From a virus: a stretch of 21,534 bases of DNA. The notes beneath the pieces are model-generated. The model saw only the letters and a program-made list of their open reading frames with translations, ran no database searches and was not told the origin of the DNA. Shown piece after piece: positions 7,630-21,534 of the stretch (position 1 is the first letter of the stretch; each line of letters begins with the position of its first letter). Position numbers and translations under genes: made by a program. The stretch spans positions 1 to 21,534 of IMG/VR virus record IMGVR_UViG_3300042344_000381; one strand, written 5' to 3'.

Positions 7630-10500
7630 TTACTTACCCTTCTTGAGGTAGTCGAGTGGAGACTTATGCGCCGGAGGTGGTAGATCCTTTTCTTTGGTGG
7701 ATCTGGCCCTTGCGCGAATCTCGTGCATCATTTTGTACAGTTTATCGGTTCCTGCCTTGGTTGAGCCATTGCCGAGTGCTGAAACCACATCGGCTGGGAA
7801 AACAAACTCACCATCAGCAAGCCATGCTGGAATGTCATCAGATTGACCATCGCCGTCACCGGCAACATGCTTGCCATCACGGAAGTCTTCTCGAGTTCCC
7901 AGGCCGCCGGCACGATACATGAACTGAGGGTTCATCGCACCGCCAGTAGCCTTTAAGGGTTCAACAAAGCCGCCTTCAGCGTACTCACGGTCAGTAAGCC
8001 CGAGGATGTCATCAATCGATGTTTCCTGACCATAGGTATAGCTGGGCGTCTCAGGTTGAGGTTGCGGTAAGCCAAGTCGCTGTGAGAGCACGGCTGCGAG
8101 CATGGGGTCGATCGAGTTCATCTCTTCAATCCTTTGTTTCATGGCTGCCAGGGGATCGATCTGCCTTTCCTGTAGCACTTTTGATTCAAGCATTTTTCCT
8201 TGTAAGCGTGCAATCTCAGGGCCAGTAATCGGACCTGCTTGTTGCGATGCTGGTGCGCCAGCCCTTGTCTGGGGCGTAGGAGGTGGTGGTGGGGGAGGAG
8301 GGGGCGGCGGTGGGGTCCCGCTGATGCCAGAGACACCACTGATACCTGAGATGCCACTTACACCCGAAATCCCAGATATGCCCGAAATGCCACTAACGCC
8401 TGAAATGCCAGAGATACCACTGACGCCTGATATGCCGCTTACGCCTGAGATACCACTTACGCCAGAGACGCCACTGACACCTGAGTACCCTGAAAGTCCT
8501 GACCTGCCGTCGCCCTCTTTTTCGCCTTCACCTGACTTGCCCGACAGGCCTGATTTTCCTTCACCGTCGGTTGGTCCTGTGGTTGGTCCAGTAGTCGGGC
8601 CTGTAACGGGACCAGTTCTTAAATCAATCGCAGTATCCGTAGCAGGACCTGTCGCTGGACCTTTTGTTACATCAGTTGCTAACTCAGTGGACAAATCGGT
8701 CACTAAGTCAGTGGCCGGTCCAGTCGTGACTTGCGTGACATCAGTGACTTCAGGCTTTTCTGCCTCTTGCCTTAATCCCTCAAGCGCAGCAAAAGTGATG
8801 TCATCAAGCTGCGAGTCAGTGGCTGCAAGATCATCAAGCTTTGCGCCACCACGAGATTCATCAGGCGCAAGACTAAGGGTTGCAAGCACTCTGCCATTGA
8901 CTGGATTAATAACAAATTGATTACCTTCATCATCAGCAATAATCTGTGGCTTTTGACTAATCAAGTTGCTACCCATGGCAGCACCTGACTCATCAGTTAC
9001 ATTGACGCTGTAACGCAATGATTGATCGGTTGGGTCATAACGGGCTGTATAAAACACCGGCTGACCTGAAGCATCAAGTACTGGATTGCCAGCACGATCG
9101 AGCATTTGAACGCGTTGGTTTAAATAAGGCGCACCACCCTCTGGGTCCTCACTCAAGAAAGTGCTTCCTGATGCAAGCTCAGTTTCGCCAAGCTTTAAGC
9201 CTGGTATTTCATAGCCGCCAAACTGTACACCTGTTTGCTGTAAACCGCCCTGACCTTCAAAAGCGCGTGGATCAGTAAGTGGACTACCACCAACGCCCTG
9301 TCCAGAAATGCGTGGATCAATGCCTTTTACACCAGTCTCTGAAAAGTCCTCGCCACTAACAGCTTTGGCTGCTTGCATGGCTTCAGCATCAGTTGCGCCA
9401 GCCTTTTTGGCATCTACAAAAGCTCGCTGCATAGCGCCCGATGCCAAGCTTGTAATCGCACCAAGCTCATTGCCACTCATGACTTGCAGGCCAGCATTCA
9501 CAATCCGTAATGCATCGGATTTGTTCATGCCAGTCTCATTGGCCAAAGCACTTGCAGCCGCATCAGCGCCAGCGCTTGTAAGCAGGGTCGTGGGATTAAT
9601 GCTGCCCGTTGTTACTAATTGCTGCACAGCGCTCTTGCCAGCGGCCGCAAGCTCGTTGGGTAGCATGGAGCCAATCTGACTGCCTAATGCCCCAGCGCCT
9701 GCAGAAAGCACTGAGTTTTTCAGCGCCGTCATCGGATCAGTGCCTGTGGCCAATTGCATGCCCAGATTGATGGCGCCTGACCCTAATGCTGATGCAGCAG
9801 CACCCGTTAAGGCACCACCGCTAAGAAATCCTCCTAAAGCACTGCCAGCGCCAGGCAGGAAAGCATTAAGCAGTAAGCCAGGCATCGGGCTGCGCAAAAA
9901 GTTTTGCAGCATATTGCCTTCAGTGCCAATTTGCTGCGTTATCTGTCCTGTTACAGGATCAAGCAAGTCATAGCGATATTGATTTTTACCAAGCCCTGCC
10001 TGGTTTTCTGACATCTTGACGAGCGAGTCACCGCTTGGCGTAACGCTCCACTCTTGGCCCTGATAACTCACTGGGTTGTAACGCGTCTCACTGCCACCTT
10101 CAAGGTTCTCTATATATCTTGATCCTTCAATAGCGCGCTGTGCTGGCGTTAATGCTGCAATCCTTGCCTGCTCGGTGTCGTAGTCTTGTTGTTGCTGTGC
10201 GGCTGTGTAATACGAGCCTGCCTCTTCACCACCACCAGGAATGTACCTATCAGTAAAGGTGGGCGCCGTATCAAGTGGCGATGGTGTCACAGCCGTTGGC
10301 GCACCAGGGAAGTAATCCATCAGTGACCTGCCTGTGGCCCTGCGAATATCCTCGTCTGATACTCCATACTGCGACATGGCAGCACGCGTAGCTTCTTCAG
10401 TAGGCGCAGCCGCAAAGAACTTGCGGATGTTCTCATTCATGGCGTCTAAGCCAATGCCACCTTCGCCCGTAGCGTATTGATAAGCGCCTGAAGTGCTCAT
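7630..10500 (-). CDS. Giant virion protein with Gly-X-Ser repeat, poly-proline and conserved C-terminal domain, 956 aa
   Basis: A composite protein. Residues 1-200 are a mixed folded region. Residues about 203-280 are a Gly/Ala-rich hydrophobic stretch that could insert in a membrane. Residues about 597-645 are Thr/Asp/Gly/Pro repeats including four GPxT units (630-645). Residues 668-727 are 20 Gly-X-Ser triplets, followed by GT and 12 consecutive prolines (730-741). Residues about 881-956 form a C-terminal domain (GDGDGQSDDIP, ADGEFVFPADVVSALGNGST, then a KMMHEIRARAR helix) of a type I recognise as conserved in structural proteins of other podovirus-like phages. No enzymatic motif is seen. 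The start is ATGA-coupled to the small protein upstream. Its role is probably structural, in the virion interior or tail. Confidence 0.65.
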   Translation of the reverse strand: MSTSGAYQYATGEGGIGLDAMNENIRKFFAAAPTEEATRAAMSQYGVSDEDIRRATGRSLMDYFPGAPTAVTPSPLDTAPTFTDRYIPGGGEEAGSYYTAAQQQQDYDTEQARIAALTPAQRAIEGSRYIENLEGGSETRYNPVSYQGQEWSVTPSGDSLVKMSENQAGLGKNQYRYDLLDPVTGQITQQIGTEGNMLQNFLRSPMPGLLLNAFLPGAGSALGGFLSGGALTGAAASALGSGAINLGMQLATGTDPMTALKNSVLSAGAGALGSQIGSMLPNELAAAGKSAVQQLVTTGSINPTTLLTSAGADAAASALANETGMNKSDALRIVNAGLQVMSGNELGAITSLASGAMQRAFVDAKKAGATDAEAMQAAKAVSGEDFSETGVKGIDPRISGQGVGGSPLTDPRAFEGQGGLQQTGVQFGGYEIPGLKLGETELASGSTFLSEDPEGGAPYLNQRVQMLDRAGNPVLDASGQPVFYTARYDPTDQSLRYSVNVTDESGAAMGSNLISQKPQIIADDEGNQFVINPVNGRVLATLSLAPDESRGGAKLDDLAATDSQLDDITFAALEGLRQEAEKPEVTDVTQVTTGPATDLVTDLSTELATDVTKGPATGPATDTAIDLRTGPVTGPTTGPTTGPTDGEGKSGLSGKSGEGEKEGDGRSGLSGYSGVSGVSGVSGISGVSGISGVSGISGISGVSGISGISGISGVSGISGISGVSGISGTPPPPPPPPPPPPTPQTRAGAPASQQAGPITGPEIARLQGKMLESKVLQERQIDPLAAMKQRIEEMNSIDPMLAAVLSQRLGLPQPQPETPSYTYGQETSIDDILGLTDREYAEGGFVEPLKATGGAMNPQFMYRAGGLGTREDFRDGKHVAGDGDGQSDDIPAWLADGEFVFPADVVSALGNGSTKAGTDKLYKMMHEIRARARSTKEKDLPPPAHKSPLDYLKKGK
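8278..8313 (-). repeat. Poly-proline tract of 12 codons (G-rich on the + strand)
   Basis: Twelve consecutive proline codons using all four Pro codons, directly after the Gly-X-Ser repeat and a GT pair. On the + strand it is a run of G-rich triplets including two runs of five Gs. Mixed codon use argues for selection on the protein rather than DNA slippage alone. Confidence 0.95.
8320..8499 (-). repeat. Twenty tandem Gly-X-Ser triplets (imperfect 9-bp repeat)
   Basis: Twenty uninterrupted Gly-X-Ser units in the 956-aa protein, where X is mostly Val or Ile, with Leu and Tyr in the first two units. It has collagen-like periodicity but no proline in X or Y, so a collagen helix is doubtful. Codons vary between units (for example both Ser families are used), so the array is older than a recent slippage event. 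Confidence 0.95.
8566..8712 (-). repeat. Thr/Asp/Gly/Pro-rich repetitive linker
   Basis: Degenerate short repeats encoding VTDLSTELATD-like and then GPxT units (four at residues 630-645 of the 956-aa protein). It precedes the Gly-X-Ser array and is probably an extended spacer. Confidence 0.75.
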
Positions 10501-16756: not shown

Positions 16757-16956
16757 ATGCCAAGCAGCTTCTTAACAAACATCGCGGCCACGCCAGGCCC
16801 AAGCAGGACGGCAGCAATGGTGATGTAAAGCAGCCACTCAATGCGTTGCATGCGCTTTGAGCCATCATCAAAACGCTTCTCAATATTTTCGTACCTGCTG
16901 GCACAAACCGCCTCGTGGACTGAAAGCCTGGTTTCGATGTTTTGTTCCATGGTCAT
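16753..16956 (-). CDS. XhlA-like small membrane protein, 67 aa
   Basis: Residues 1-40 are a charged helix (ETRLSVHEAVCASRYENIEK) with a RMQRIEWLL junction, followed by one transmembrane segment at about 41-60 (WLLYITIAAVLLGPGVAAMF). A basic or polar N-terminal helix followed by a single C-terminal TM is the pattern of the haemolysin XhlA class, phage-encoded membrane proteins that assist lysis. It lies just upstream of the holin and lysozyme, which supports a lysis role. The start is ATG 16956 (MTMEQN); the second Met is a weaker alternative because the first gives ATGA coupling to the oxygenase gene. Confidence 0.7.
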   Translation of the reverse strand: MTMEQNIETRLSVHEAVCASRYENIEKRFDDGSKRMQRIEWLLYITIAAVLLGPGVAAMFVKKLLGI

Positions 16957-17576
16957 AAAGCATTCAAGAAAATTAACTGTGTCAGCCGGCTGTTAGTCAC
17001 ATCGGTACCGAAGTGATCTCCCATCGAATGCCACATCCAGGGCCGAAACAAAACCAACCGATTGGTCCGAATCGGGGCATCAAAAACAGGTTCCCATAAG
17101 TTTTTGTTCTTGCCTTCAGTCTCAAAGAACTTGACCATGTCATCGTGTGTCGTAACACCGATGGCTTGTGCTTCGATATGGTCCCTTGGCGCCACTTCCA
17201 TACCTGATTTGCGGTGGCGATACATCGTCGTGCCAGCCTGCTTGCCAGCATAATGCTCGGGCAGGCTTAGGTAAATAACCCCAGCCCAAACCTGCTGAGG
17301 CTTGGGATCAAAGTGAATGACTTGCGTTGAAGTGTCATGCTCGCAGGTAAAGCGAAAGTGGCCACAGCTTGAGGTAGGCGTCGGGAACACAATATCGCCT
17401 GTAATCGCTGAGAGCATGTTGTTAAGGTCCAATGACCAAAACGCCTGCATGCTGTTGCACCCAGGGTAATTACGCTCTCCTGGCGCTTCATACTCAGCCT
17501 GCAGCGCAATCTGACGAATGTCTGCAAAGTTGGGGAAGAAGTCATCCACCACGATGATGCGCTTATCAAAGTTCAC
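16953..17576 (-). CDS. 2OG-Fe(II)-oxygenase-like protein (DUF6445-like), 207 aa
   Basis: A mixed beta protein with the ordered pattern IIVVDDFFPNFADIRQIALQ, NYPGCNSMQAFW, QVIHFDPKPQQVWAGVIYLS, GTTMYRHRKSG, and NRLVLFRPWMWHSMGDHFG with NSRLTQLIFLN at the end. The H-x-D pair (H88, D90) and distal His183, with Arg197 downstream, fit the metal- and 2-oxoglutarate-binding set of the 2OG-Fe(II) oxygenase superfamily, and the VDDFFP/NYPG/GT-MYRH layout fits DUF6445. The family would hydroxylate a substrate that cannot be read from sequence; here it lies among glycan enzymes. I take the start as GTG 17576, which gives a GTGA overlap with the GT32 stop; an adjacent GTG at 17579 is the alternative. Catalytic activity is inferred. 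Confidence 0.7.
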   Translation of the reverse strand: MNFDKRIIVVDDFFPNFADIRQIALQAEYEAPGERNYPGCNSMQAFWSLDLNNMLSAITGDIVFPTPTSSCGHFRFTCEHDTSTQVIHFDPKPQQVWAGVIYLSLPEHYAGKQAGTTMYRHRKSGMEVAPRDHIEAQAIGVTTHDDMVKFFETEGKNKNLWEPVFDAPIRTNRLVLFRPWMWHSMGDHFGTDVTNSRLTQLIFLNAL

Positions 17577-18274
17577 CACTCACCTGTCCAGTGACGCAAA
17601 CCGTTGGCAGCATAGAAGTCACGCTTCATCTTCTCCCAATCGCCTGCATACCCCTTAAATAGGGTGGTTTGATGGGGTGGATTCTCTGGTATGCACTTAA
17701 GACCTTCAACCATATTGATCGCAGCACGCATTTGCTCGAAGGCTTGCTCGCCAGGATTGGTATCAATGATGCCGCCAAATAATGTCTCAGTGATGGCATG
17801 CATGTAAGTCTGTGCGCCAAGGAAATAGATGCTATCTGCACCCTCTCGCCTGCGTGCAAGCCAGTGCCTAATGGCAGCGCGGTAGATTGGATTGTGCGGT
17901 GCGCTCAACATCATGTCATGCGAGAAATCATGGTTGCGGCAAGTCGGCAAAATTTGCCGCGTGTCATCATCAATCAGTTTTGACAGGGGCATGTTGCAAA
18001 GCCTGTCAATATCGATGTAAAGGCCACCTTCCAAGAACATCTTGTAAAGCCGCCAAATGTCGGTCTTGGCCACGATATGCAAGGGCTGGGCAAGCTCATA
18101 GTCCTCAGCCATTTTCTCTTGCAGGTAGGCCTCGATGTCAGCATCGTCAGAGATCTGCAAGTCCCAATCAGGGTTCAGTTCGACAAGCTTTTTAAGGCCA
18201 TGCTTGATCAGGGGCGCGTCACTTTTGAGCACCTCTTTGTCATTCCAGGCAATATGAATGATTTTGGGAATCAT
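17573..18274 (-). CDS. GT32-like glycosyltransferase with a DxD motif, 233 aa
   Basis: It begins IPKIIHIAWNDK, which fits the first strand of GT32-type (OCH1/TcdA-like sugar) transferases. It then has NPDWDLQISDDADI, and the central KTDIWRLYKMFLEGGLYIDI with Asp88 and Asp90 in a D-I-D motif that binds the nucleotide sugar with a metal ion. The later LSAPHNPIYRAAIRHWLARR region is also typical. The family transfers a hexose or GlcNAc to a glycan or protein; donor and acceptor cannot be told. A cytoplasmic enzyme, with no signal peptide or TM. Coupled by ATGA to the kinase fusion upstream and by GTGA to the oxygenase downstream, so it is probably made together with them. Confidence 0.85.
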   Translation of the reverse strand: MIPKIIHIAWNDKEVLKSDAPLIKHGLKKLVELNPDWDLQISDDADIEAYLQEKMAEDYELAQPLHIVAKTDIWRLYKMFLEGGLYIDIDRLCNMPLSKLIDDDTRQILPTCRNHDFSHDMMLSAPHNPIYRAAIRHWLARRREGADSIYFLGAQTYMHAITETLFGGIIDTNPGEQAFEQMRAAINMVEGLKCIPENPPHQTTLFKGYAGDWEKMKRDFYAANGLRHWTGEW

Positions 18275-19137
18275 GATTTATCGGTGACTACAAGTTTTTT
18301 GAATCCCATCTTCTCGCGGATCTTGGTGGCTGAGATGGCGTGCGTGGCATCGTCAAACACTTCTTGCTCGATTTTGTAGCCCACATCACGGCCATAGGTG
18401 ATGTTTACGACATTGGGCACTAGCTGAATCTCATATTGGCCTTGATACAAAGGATCAAGATCGCGCCTGATGAAGTCCTTGACTTGCTCGGCAGCAAAGG
18501 GATTGGACCCGTTCCAGCCCTGGCAATCACGGATTTGAATGACTACCTGACCTGTTTTGGCAATGGCACGCTCAAACAGTTTGCGATGGCCAGGATGCCA
18601 AGGTTGCCAGCGTCCAAGCATTTGGACGGTCTCTTTCTTCCAGTCAAAGCGTGGTCTGCGACGGTCATTCAAGATGTGATCTGCAATAAAGTCAGACCAC
18701 TTATCAGCGTCTTTCTCGGTAATACGAAAGTCGTAGAGATCAGGTGGTACGAAAGCTTTGTTGGTATCTTCGTAGCGGCCCTGATCGATGGTGTCCATCC
18801 AGATCACCCAGTCAGCCTTGAAGTTATGACGCATCTCAGGCAGGGGTGCCACAAAGTCACAGATCACATAGTCAGCATTGGCAGTCATGGCAAACTCAGC
18901 CATGCGTAAGGACTGGCGAATGCGCCCTTCATGGCTAAAGTCCCAGTCGTTATACTTCTTGCGGACCTCATCAGCATTGAACCACTTCACGCTGGGGCGA
19001 TAAAAGGTTGGCACCACCTCGCACTGCGCTAGTGCTTCAACGGGAATCTCAGTGCTGGCTTCCAGGCGCTTCTTGAGAGCCTCAGCCATAAAGGTTTTGC
19101 CTGCTCCTGGCAGGCCCATGATCAGAATTTTTTTCAT
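18271..19137 (-). CDS. APS-kinase-like P-loop kinase fused to a nucleotidyltransferase, 288 aa
   Basis: Two domains. The N-terminal part (1-165) has a Walker A GLPGAGKT (8-15), then FNADEVRKKYNDWDFSHEGR and ADYVICDFVAPLPEMR, which follows the order of adenylylsulfate kinases (P-loop, LDGDNVR-type loop, FS-x-x-R-x-x-N/S-R, then CSF-x-x-P); such an enzyme makes PAPS from APS and ATP. The C-terminal part (about 170-280) has GRWQPWHPGH (175-184) and ISATKIR (268-274), the HxGH and IS-x-T-x-IR motifs of the cytidylyltransferase/NMNAT-like family. The C-terminal part is much shorter than ATP sulfurylase, so it may instead be a mini nucleotidyltransferase of unknown substrate. Kinase plus nucleotidyltransferase also recalls NadR, but in the opposite order. 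Substrate not determined. Confidence 0.8.
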   Translation of the reverse strand: MKKILIMGLPGAGKTFMAEALKKRLEASTEIPVEALAQCEVVPTFYRPSVKWFNADEVRKKYNDWDFSHEGRIRQSLRMAEFAMTANADYVICDFVAPLPEMRHNFKADWVIWMDTIDQGRYEDTNKAFVPPDLYDFRITEKDADKWSDFIADHILNDRRRPRFDWKKETVQMLGRWQPWHPGHRKLFERAIAKTGQVVIQIRDCQGWNGSNPFAAEQVKDFIRRDLDPLYQGQYEIQLVPNVVNITYGRDVGYKIEQEVFDDATHAISATKIREKMGFKKLVVTDKS

Positions 19138-19829
19138 GCGGCTAACTTATCGTTGCGGTCGGTTTTTCGGCCATGCTTGGGGCGTCCAAGGATGGTTGTC
19201 TCAGTCTTATCAGGTGCGTCTGTAGCGTACACGCCCATTTGATGAATCGGGAAAATATCAGCACGAATCAGAATATCTAAAGGCACAGCAATGCCGTACT
19301 TAATCACATGCGAGAGCAGGTTTTTAGCGACGGCTGGATCAATGGCGTAGGCATGAGCACGGCAAATGAAATGATAATTCGGGCCTTCAGACGCGTGTGG
19401 TGGCGTTGGCATCACAGCCCAACCCTTTTGCGTTTGCTCGTGGCAACCAAGATAGCAAATCGAGTTGTAAACCGCGTGCTGGCGATAAGGCTGCACCATC
19501 ACCGCATCATGCTCAAGAATGACAAGGGGTTTGTCATCTTCAATGCACTTGGCCCACAGGCTTATGTGTGAGAGCGCACAGGCCACTTCACCGCGTGTGA
19601 GGTAGTGGTCAGTCACCTTGATCAAGTTCATCACCTGACTGTGGTGAGCAGGTGGCTGGATGGGGTCTTCTAAGCCGTTATAAGCATCCCAAAACTGGTA
19701 GGGCATACCAATCGAGGCGCAGGACTTAGCAGCTTCGTTAGCCTTGCGCTCGGATACCTCATGCCCTGGGATGCGGATAATGTAAGCCCGATCCACAGCC
19801 ATGTCATAGCTGTAGAAGAGCGACTTCAT
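19134..19829 (-). CDS. GT25-like glycosyltransferase with EHD in place of EDD, 231 aa
   Basis: The N-terminus has DRAYIIRIPGHEVSERKANE, followed by IGMPYQFWDAYNG, the hallmark start of GT25 (LPS-type galactosyltransferase) enzymes. LTRGEVACALSHISLWAKCI then DDKPLVILEHDAVMVQP (residues 78-112) is the SH-x-LW / VLEDD region. Residue 107 is His where the family has Asp, so the usual EDD is EHD (106-108). Toward the C-terminus, YAIDPAVAKNLLSH and VPLDILIRADIF are the expected donor/acceptor-side motifs. A cytoplasmic transferase acting on an LPS-like or protein-linked sugar is inferred. ATGA-coupled on both sides. Confidence 0.8.
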   Translation of the reverse strand: MKSLFYSYDMAVDRAYIIRIPGHEVSERKANEAAKSCASIGMPYQFWDAYNGLEDPIQPPAHHSQVMNLIKVTDHYLTRGEVACALSHISLWAKCIEDDKPLVILEHDAVMVQPYRQHAVYNSICYLGCHEQTQKGWAVMPTPPHASEGPNYHFICRAHAYAIDPAVAKNLLSHVIKYGIAVPLDILIRADIFPIHQMGVYATDAPDKTETTILGRPKHGRKTDRNDKLAA

Positions 19830-20281
19830 GTGGGCTTAACAGGCCAGTCTAAACCGTTGAAATCAACGATGGTAGGCAGATCACGCAGGGCTTGGCGGTA
19901 GGTTGTCCATGCCTCGGGCACAGCTTGTCCTGCTTCCAGATACTTGATGATGACCCAGTCAGTTTCAGCCAGCCTGAAGTTGCGCTCAATGCGCCACAAG
20001 CGCCAACGCTCTGCTGCCTCGGCATCAAGCTCTTCTTGCGTCTTGGATCGCTTAACGAGCGTCCAGACGACATGATCGTCCTTGATCTCGTAGCTTTCAG
20101 AATCCCACACCTCAGTGCGCGTATCCATCGAATCAGGCTTCACTGAAACAACGGGATACCAACCTGAGCGAATCAGCGCATCTTTATCAGCACCCCAGGC
20201 TGAGACATCAGGTGGCAGTGGATTGGCACCACGCACTACCTTCCCGTCTTCAACCTTAACCCATAGATCTAATCCTGCCAT
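19826..20281 (-). CDS. Phage tail assembly chaperone-like protein, 151 aa
   Basis: The N-terminal 75 residues are beta-rich (LDLWVKVEDGKVV, then SGWYPVVSVKPDSM and EVWDSESYEI). The C-terminal 55 residues carry the diagnostic pattern RRN-x-x-L-x-ETDW ... AW-x-x-YRQALRDLP ... WPVKP (here RNFRLAETDWVIIKYLEAGQ then EAWTTYRQALRDLPTI). This is the C-terminal domain of phage tail assembly chaperone proteins that help fold or trimerise tail fibres. It lies among glycosyltransferases rather than beside the fibre. The start is ATG 20281, with a GGGG tract upstream; the in-frame ATG at 20293 has none. The gene overlaps the upstream fusion by 26 nt. Confidence 0.8.
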   Translation of the reverse strand: MAGLDLWVKVEDGKVVRGANPLPPDVSAWGADKDALIRSGWYPVVSVKPDSMDTRTEVWDSESYEIKDDHVVWTLVKRSKTQEELDAEAAERWRLWRIERNFRLAETDWVIIKYLEAGQAVPEAWTTYRQALRDLPTIVDFNGLDWPVKPT

Positions 20282-21534
20282 GATGTACCCCATTCAAGTA
20301 ATCGCTAAGTTCACTGCGAATCATTTCAAAAACATCATCCCAAGTATCGTATTTGCTCTGCCTGAACAATCGAACAGCATCGTACCAAGGAACATTACTT
20401 CCAGGTAAGGCCCACAAGTAATAAGGCAGGATTGGGATGGCAACCCAGGTCGGTATGCCCATCGCAGCCGATAGGTGAGCCACTGAGGTACATGATGAGA
20501 TGACTAAGTCACAGCCTGCCACAGCTAACTGCGTATCCTGCCATGAGTCAAGTTTGGACTCAGCAATCCATTCAGGCCGATGCTGTGCGCCTTCATCACG
20601 CTGCAAGGACACAAACTCAACATCAAAGCCTTTAACAGCATTAAAGAGTAATTCCGGTGGGAAATACTTGCGATGATCGTGCTCAAAATTAGGATTGCCC
20701 TGCCAGCGCAAACCAATGCGGAATTTGTCCTTCGTGACTTGTGGGCAGGGAATATAAGCGCGACCCCACACATCCTTGTACTCAATACCCAAAGGTATCG
20801 GTGCTGACATTCCAGGCACCCAAGCATGGTGATAAACGCCTGGAGCCGCTTCGTGAACGGCTACCGCACGCACATTGGGGACCGTTGCAAAGAGCGTTAC
20901 AAGCTCAGGCGAGCAAGCCACAATCACTTGGCAGTTGCGAGCCGTAATGTCTTGCACAAAGCGCATCTGGTGGATTTGATCGCCCAGACCACCTTCTAAG
21001 TAAAGCAAGACAATTTGATTAGGTTGGCCTTCCCAAACTTGAGTAGGCACTTGAGGCTTGCGGTTGCCAAAGACCTGCTCAATCCTGCCTCTTGCAAGCA
21101 GTTGCATACCCTCTTGCAGCTTGCCTTGCATCAGTACATACAGGCCTCGGTTATAGGCTGCGCGATGATTTTCAGGCTCGACACGCTCAAGGTGCTGGGC
21201 AATCTCCCAAGCCTTTTGGAAGTCACCGCGACGACCTGCTTCCAGTTGCAAATCAAGGGGCTGTTTGGGTCTTGACTCTTCGGTTTCGCCAAGCCAAAAG
21301 CGTGGTTGATTGAACTCGTGATAGCGATGCCCCAACACCTCTTGGGCTGTTTGTTTATGCTGGCGCTCAAGCTTAGGCTTGATGTCATGCAAACCAGGGA
21401 TGCCCCAAACCTCATCATCTTTCTCGGCTACTACCGAGCCTTCAATGCGCTCAAAGTCATAGGCAAAAGGCTCAAGCTCCAAGAACTGATGAATGCGATC
21501 AAGCTGTGTCTTGGGATCAGCAAGCAGGTCTTCG
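20256..21534 (-). CDS. Sulfotransferase-TPR-glycosyltransferase fusion (5' end beyond the window)
   Basis: The frame is open to the right edge, so the N-terminus is missing. 425 residues are visible, in three parts. First, the C-terminal end of a sulfotransferase domain: EDLLADPKTQLDRIHQFLEL followed by EPFAYDF-x-RIEG, KDDEVWGIPGLHDIKPKLER and VLGHRYHEFNQPRFW, matching the end of bacterial PAPS-dependent sulfotransferases. Second, TPR-like helices at about 21063-21242 (LEAGRRGDFQKAWEIAQHLE, NRGLYVLMQGKLQEG, RGRIEQVFGN). Third, a GT-B type transferase at about 20298-21035 with GGLGDQIHQMRF, IGLRWQGNP, EFVSLQRDE, and DLVISSCTSVAHLSAAMGIP, fitting GT9/heptosyltransferase-like TPR transferases. 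A TTG at 21482 is a spurious internal start. Co-located with the APS-kinase-like gene, which could make the PAPS the sulfotransferase needs. Confidence 0.8.
   Translation of the reverse strand, partial: EDLLADPKTQLDRIHQFLELEPFAYDFERIEGSVVAEKDDEVWGIPGLHDIKPKLERQHKQTAQEVLGHRYHEFNQPRFWLGETEESRPKQPLDLQLEAGRRGDFQKAWEIAQHLERVEPENHRAAYNRGLYVLMQGKLQEGMQLLARGRIEQVFGNRKPQVPTQVWEGQPNQIVLLYLEGGLGDQIHQMRFVQDITARNCQVIVACSPELVTLFATVPNVRAVAVHEAAPGVYHHAWVPGMSAPIPLGIEYKDVWGRAYIPCPQVTKDKFRIGLRWQGNPNFEHDHRKYFPPELLFNAVKGFDVEFVSLQRDEGAQHRPEWIAESKLDSWQDTQLAVAGCDLVISSCTSVAHLSAAMGIPTWVAIPILPYYLWALPGSNVPWYDAVRLFRQSKYDTWDDVFEMIRSELSDYLNGVHHGRIRSMG

Follow-up and report, generated by a model that had tools for sequence, protein, structure and literature searches.

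Does a phage that carries a sulfotransferase also supply the activated sulfate that such an enzyme would spend? The question is raised by the virus record IMGVR_UViG_3300042344_000381, analyzed here as a single stretch of 21,534 bases (the window). A minus-strand gene of this stretch (18271..19137) encodes a 288-amino-acid fusion of an adenosine 5'-phosphosulfate (APS) kinase half (residues 1 to ~160) and a compact HxGH adenylyltransferase half (~160–280), as delimited by Pfam, alignment and a structural model. The same gene block holds the C-terminal end of a sulfotransferase (20256..21533, minus strand), cut by the end of the contig, and an initial annotation had proposed that the two proteins make and use 3'-phosphoadenosine 5'-phosphosulfate (PAPS). 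We consider it probable that this compact fusion carries out both steps of PAPS synthesis, with its nucleotidyltransferase (NT) half serving as a non-canonical ATP sulfurylase.

The two halves of the fusion protein

The APS_kinase profile (PF01583) scores 28.7 on the window fusion (Pfam cut-off 21.1) and 45.6 on one kinase half from SAR11, and the best profile matches of the kinase half are APS kinases (E 1e-15 and 9e-14). An AlphaFold2 model of the fusion has a mean predicted local distance difference test score (pLDDT) of 87.4, and the first 19 rows of a Foldseek search with this model are APS kinases. In a second look at the Foldseek PDB matches (VIA), APS kinases fill the first 30 rows (Z 16.0–19.1), either as such or as APS-kinase(-like) domains within ATP sulfurylases and PAPS synthetases; a gluconate kinase comes next at 15.1. 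Residues D56, R59, F67, R72 and R78 are invariant across an alignment of 44 diverse fusions. Known APS kinases contact APS through D, R, F, R and a fifth residue, Asn, and we equate the first four invariant positions with the D, R, F and R of this set; the fusion was also aligned to 2yvu and PAPSS1. Four of the five pocket positions, whose loss would have spoken against the initial annotation, are kept in this reading. Its profile matches and fold make this half a divergent APS kinase whose activity is predicted.

The NT half (18271..18666, ~125 amino acids), delimited by comparison with SAR11 proteins, is the more informative part of the fusion, a point that the initial annotation had missed. 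Its sequence and fold are NMNAT/PPAT-like, the CTP_transf_like profile stays just under its Pfam cut-off (20 vs 21), and no family cut-off is reached. The motif GRxQPxHxGH and the fold (VIA Z about 10) are shared with nicotinamide mononucleotide (NMN) and phosphopantetheine adenylyltransferases, from which NT differs in its gene context of sulfur activation and in its NCBIfam scores (NMN adenylyltransferase models on the window fusion: TIGR01527, 26.2 vs 181.2; NF002243, 28.6 vs 127).

With Sat-type ATP sulfurylase (PF01747), NT shares the place before aprMBA, a pyruvate-kinase-like neighbor and an HxxH-type nucleotidyltransferase, but it is about a third of the size. No PF01747 match was found for the window fusion, one SAR11 NT reaches 17 against a cut-off of 24.3, and no Sat structure occurs among the 50 matches listed for the NT model. 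A YGR(D/G)VGY loop in phage relatives may echo the GRD loop of Sat at the level of sequence. By the tests run (cut-off and the QxRN motif), NT lies outside the Sat family, though it appears to work like Sat. Metazoan PAPS synthetase (PAPSS1/2) likewise joins an N-terminal APS kinase to a C-terminal adenylyltransferase and has the kinase fold and most pocket residues in common with the fusion; it is about 620 amino acids long, however, against 288, and the second domain of the fusion is NMNAT/PPAT-like and not Sat-type.

Sulfotransferases beside the kinase in phages and bacteria

The window gene retains only the C-terminal end of its sulfotransferase, and the missing N-terminus was read, as the initial annotation had suggested, from a related contig (L002). 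This contig has the same gene order as the window cassette, a fusion 99% identical to that of the window, and a complete 591-amino-acid sulfotransferase (L002:7107-8882) that passes Sulfotransfer_3 (PF13469; 53.2 vs cut-off 27) and PF00685 (38.2 vs 22) and carries LPRSGST as its 5' PAPS loop. By profile and motif, the complete neighbor protein is a PAPS-type sulfotransferase, and it resembles the Sulfotransfer_3 TPR-sulfotransferases, from which the window gene differs in having the C-terminal end only.

The fusion family is common in viruses: at least 588 of the 600 viral stretches matched encode a relative, of which the best 80 were kept. PF13469 was counted on 45 of these contigs (hand-picked, mostly longer) and is found on 31; in every case a copy lies on the same strand, no more than 6 kb upstream of the kinase gene. 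As a control, loci were chosen by the head-tail adaptor gene (PHROG) of one phage group, a marker taken from a kinase-bearing contig. Of the 41 such loci whose upstream sequence spans at least 7.5 kb, both genes occur in 17 and neither in 22, with one locus for each gene alone. Merging the adaptor proteins at 98% identity leaves counts of 9/13/1/1 in 24 loci (Fisher p 7e-5), and merging at 90% leaves 5/9/1/1 in 16 (Fisher p 0.008); these tests ignore phylogeny.

The linkage depends on distance from the window kinase. Counts were made on 103 of the 173 full fusions, those with at least 5 kb of sequence upstream. Where the kinase shares at least 65% identity with that of the window, a PF13469-type sulfotransferase is nearby in 54 of 66 loci; setting aside seven loci present twice from two scans, five of them in this count, gives 49 of 61 distinct contigs, and clustering at 90% identity gives 26 of 35 clusters. 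Kinases under 65% identity have such a neighbor at 1 of 37 loci, in a count where the profile misses the families near L165, L198 and L219. The expectation that relatives keep kinase and sulfotransferase together is therefore borne out in the window's clade and fails for distant kinases. The proposed PAPS supply-and-use pair, likewise, draws support from the pocket residues and from linkage in its own clade, and none from linkage in distant relatives.

Other sulfotransferases lie near some of the distant relatives (L165, L195, L198, L219 and L232). Searches of whole records covered 50 records: 40 loci chosen by hand, mostly the longer ones, from a separate set of 80, together with two phages and 8 contigs from the count of 45 that lack PF13469. 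Over these, PF03567 exceeds its cut-off in 8 and Stf0 (PF09037) gives matches in 4, all under cut-off, while PF13469 occurs in 5 of the 42 records that exclude those 8 contigs (4 over cut-off). Matches anywhere on a record were counted, at distances from the kinase of 2 to about 90 kb. PHROG 10255, labeled ‘kinase’ (Stenotrophomonas phage DLP6 and others), is the same fusion family (2.3e-46), with 34–39% identity over five phage records. Unlike the window gene, the DLP6 relative sits among DNA ligase and other DNA genes with no sulfotransferase nearby, and the one Sulfotransfer_2 match in DLP6 is about 90 kb from the kinase; Clavibacter phage 33 has no match for the three sulfotransferase families tried.

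Other proteins lie near the fusions. P-loop-like proteins starting LTGPQGSGNHLW or VAGAPGSKWSSV occur near fusions without PF13469 (L058:8066-8686 and 9375-9995; L071:8090-8719 and 9375-9998; L080:12002-12697) and are possibly divergent sulfotransferases; those scanned have no Pfam match over cut-off and no PHROG match. A protein encoded upstream of the fusion at L024:9428-10411 (also in L020, L022, L047 and L049) joins an N-terminal part that looks oxygenase-like by eye, for which Pfam gives no match, to a kinase-domain copy at the C-terminus with a P-loop that seems to be lost; it is a possible pseudo-APS-kinase. Further neighbors are a carbamoyltransferase (L041:8486-9955), a nucleotidyltransferase-cupin fusion (L028:9243-10004) and an S-adenosylmethionine synthetase (L180:9052-10170).

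The family is also encoded in bacterial genomes, including Pelagibacteraceae (SAR11), SAR116, SAR86, Bradyrhizobium and others (best 80 of 542), and in many bacterial loci kinase and NT are split into two overlapping genes. Sulfotransferases were marked at 3 of 10 bacterial loci inspected (L242, L261, L266) and confirmed by Pfam at L242 and L261. Sulfate-activation genes were counted in 50 carrier genomes, drawn from the best 80 bacterial loci and incomplete as assemblies: Sat (PF01747) is found in 4, strong CysD/CysH-type PF01507 in 10, and neither in 37. PF13469 sulfotransferases are present in 27 of these 37, over cut-off in 25. Weak PF01507 matches in SAR11 cover profile positions 2–90 only, on frames of ~525 amino acids that we take to be GMP synthase.

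Across 118 SAR11-family genomes, counting kinase and NT matches with E about 1e-20 or better and excluding weaker ones, PF13469 occurs in 30 of the 42 genomes with the kinase half vs 15 of the 76 without (p 4e-8). Another 23 SAR11 genomes have NT without the kinase half; in this group no PF13469 match is strong (E < 1e-25, a set picked after the table was seen), and five genomes have one at E ≤ 0.001.

The NT gene in the SAR11 apr operon

In 16 of these 23 genomes NT is the gene immediately preceding aprM, aprB and aprA (at L325, aprB and aprA pass the NCBIfam cut-offs TIGR02060 and TIGR02061, and aprM is assigned by position only). The 16 stand-alone proteins are 50–54% identical to the NT half of the window fusion, 16 positions are invariant across all 69 NT sequences compared, and the SAR11 and window-type NT domains form one group (support 0.97). 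Over the 118 genomes, aprA was found in 48 of 63 with NT vs 5 of 55 without (p 4e-14, phylogeny ignored). Just upstream of the apr operon, 24 of the 53 aprA genomes have a member of the family, as NT alone (18), split kinase and NT (5) or the fusion (1). At L335:6057-6437 (genome G149), NT is kept between its usual flanking genes, although aprMBA is missing from that site.

Directly upstream of aprM, the 44 of the 53 aprA genomes that were read in detail carry NT in 16 cases, a HIT protein in 20 (plus one by eye), a CADD-family gene in 5 and another gene in 1, with the contig ending there in the last. HIT proteins include APS-splitting enzymes, so the slot before aprM may concern APS disposal. 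The HIT-like protein at this place (L358-L361, L363-L369, L371 and L374-L382, with L376 judged by eye; one confirmed as PF01230) is itself a candidate APS-splitting enzyme.

In Allochromatium, sat lies immediately upstream of aprMBA and is co-transcribed with it (PMC3779200), and cysDNCHIJ and sat are reported absent from ‘Ca. Pelagibacter ubique’ (PMC5069961). A second neighborhood places NT where Sat can stand. Six SAR11 loci carry a pyruvate-kinase-barrel gene (PF00224 in all six; L321:4034-5014, L334:5530-6495, L337:5192-6199, L339:4835-5830, L352:68-1414, L353:2094-3419). Its neighbor is CysC-Sat or Sat in two of them (Pfam confirms both enzymes), the fusion or NT in three others, and a masked stretch holding an NT fragment in the sixth. 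Since Sat or NT was the reason for retrieving these loci, they indicate an equivalence of place, not a frequency. The simplest single account would be that NT makes or unmakes APS.

The cassette, competing readings and meaning

The first 3.7 kb of the window are filled with small forward-strand open reading frames (ORFs), and the remainder is a minus-strand block of tail, lysozyme and virion genes, with the cassette at its upstream end. The cassette genes, all on the minus strand, lie where the initial annotation had placed them and overlap their neighbors, by 38 bases at 20256-20293 and by 4–7 bases from 19829 down to 16753. The truncated product of 20256..21533, typed by ORF, Pfam and the L002 homolog, continues past the sulfotransferase end into a TPR-like region, whose TPR match is under the Pfam cut-off (21.1 vs 32.7), and a C-terminal domain whose type is unconfirmed; the GT-B part claimed for it has no match in a Pfam search to E 0.1. 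A tail assembly chaperone (Phage_tail_APC, PF16778; 19826..20293; Pfam 52 vs cut-off 26.6, and PHROG) had been overlooked. The GT25-like and GT32-like transferases named in the initial annotation pass their Pfam cut-offs, as does its APS kinase: a family 25 protein (GT25; 19134..19829; 69.3 vs 24) and a GT32-type protein with a DXD motif (PF04488; 17573..18274; 30.5 vs 23). The gene described as 2OG-Fe(II)-oxygenase-like (16953..17579) passes as a DUF6445 protein (54.5 vs 24), with 2OG-FeII_Oxy_5 below cut-off (18 vs 27). Elsewhere in the virion gene block, 7630-10500 (minus strand) encodes a 956-amino-acid protein in which a long GVSGISG-type repeat leads into a run of prolines.

Under the favored scheme, the C-terminal HxGH adenylyltransferase would act as an ATP sulfurylase (ATP + sulfate -> APS + pyrophosphate), the N-terminal kinase would add a 3'-phosphate to APS, yielding PAPS, and the adjacent sulfotransferase would spend the PAPS. 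The acceptor would most likely be a glycan or protein linked to the tail fibers, because glycosyltransferases, the oxygenase-like protein and the tail assembly chaperone share the late operon; the chaperone and the late position favor a fiber-linked acceptor, with a change of the host surface as the alternative. Extended to bacteria, this becomes a joint reading that we hold a little less firmly and still think rather likely: NT is a further kind of ATP sulfurylase on an NMNAT/PPAT-like fold, outside the Sat family by the tests run and unlike CysDN. Alone, it would close the SAR11 sulfite-to-sulfate route after AprBA, running as an ATP-forming sulfurylase; joined to APS kinase, where it would run towards PAPS, it would form a very small PAPS synthase beside the sulfotransferases of many uncultured phages.

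A number of results count against this interpretation. In the kinase half, the fifth APS-pocket position (Asn) and the usual lid motif are not kept in the fusions, and the cut-off of the NCBIfam apsK equivalog (TIGR00455) is missed at 21 vs 138.7 bits, which is why we regard this half as a divergent member. In both sequence and fold, the closest matches of the NT half are NMN and phosphopantetheine adenylyltransferases, and GRxQP stands in place of the QxRN (RNP) motif that PMC3779200 gives for Sat. The disregard of phylogeny in the Fisher tests, the incompleteness of the carrier genomes and the rarity of PF13469 beside kinases under 65% identity belong here too, as do the neighborhoods of DLP6 and Clavibacter phage 33, two of five cultured matches, which hold no sulfotransferase. 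NT was not detected in five aprA genomes (G155, whose kinase half is interrupted by the end of a contig, G169, G187, G212 and G222), and a PF01747 search of these five found Sat in none. Conversely, G149 keeps NT, and aprA was not found in that genome. Five of the 118 SAR11-family genomes have Sat, and four of these (G090, G137, G145 and G199) also carry the fusion/NT family; since the NT-less aprA genomes are without Sat as well, NT and Sat are not alternatives by presence.

The nearness of NT to NMN and phosphopantetheine adenylyltransferases, together with the GT25, GT32 and other glycan enzymes adjoining the fusion, would also fit a true APS kinase that uses host-made APS, with NT adenylating some other small molecule of the same glycan pathway. 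We judge this unlikely, although it is the most plausible of the alternatives: NT takes the position of sat in the apr operon of SAR11 and stands in place of Sat beside the pyruvate-kinase-like gene, and many NT-carrying hosts have no recognized ATP sulfurylase. In sequence, the NT half matches NMNAT best (E 1e-10), and NadR combines these two kinds of domain in reverse order; both points suggest instead a NadR-like nicotinamide riboside kinase and NMN adenylyltransferase, salvaging nicotinamide adenine dinucleotide (NAD) during infection. Such salvage is improbable in our view, leaving the sulfotransferase and apr linkage unexplained, with the NMNAT models on the window fusion and the NadR model on the SAR11 halves scoring far under their NCBIfam cut-offs. 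It was rejected as the principal interpretation on the ground that the kinase half matches APS kinases first.

In Campylobacter methyl-phosphoramidate synthesis, an APS-kinase homolog pairs with a nucleotidyltransferase function, and by this likeness the fusion might make another 3'-phosphorylated activated group for capsule or fiber decoration. The linked neighbors are sulfotransferases, however, and the apr linkage points to APS, so that we give this idea very little weight and keep it as a lead. Equally slight is the chance that kinase and sulfotransferase form no functional pair and simply travel together in a variable tail-fiber region. The cassettes do lie in regions that differ between phages, and linkage is weak in distant clades; yet the two genes co-occur almost exclusively with one another beside the same head-tail adaptor gene, and PF13469 accompanies the kinase half in bacteria as well, in the SAR11 proportions given above. 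The reading of the fusion as a PAPS synthase remains the one we prefer.

Parts of this picture are already known separately, viral cysC and viral sulfotransferases each having been reported as auxiliary metabolic genes of unproven role. Viral cysC and cysNC are listed as not validated (PMC12713726), and PF13469 is noted in OM43-type phage genomes, with its function called unclear (PMC10580990); the passages concerned neither connect the two genes nor refer to the NT half. A phage PAPS reductase (PMC10434257) is a different enzyme. Within the open-licence PubMed Central literature, in so far as its text was accessible, no description was found of a phage PAPS synthase-sulfotransferase cassette or of the NT family as a sulfurylase, so that the pairing of kinase and sulfotransferase and the NT half appear to be undescribed there.

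If the favored reading is correct, these phages bring a complete and very small PAPS supply along with their own sulfotransferases, and genes that best match NMN adenylyltransferase, cytidylyltransferase or ‘kinase’ profiles would change in meaning. For SAR11, a group that ranks among the most abundant bacteria of the ocean and in which AprBA has been reported without sat, NT would also be a candidate for the enzyme of sulfate activation that is missing.

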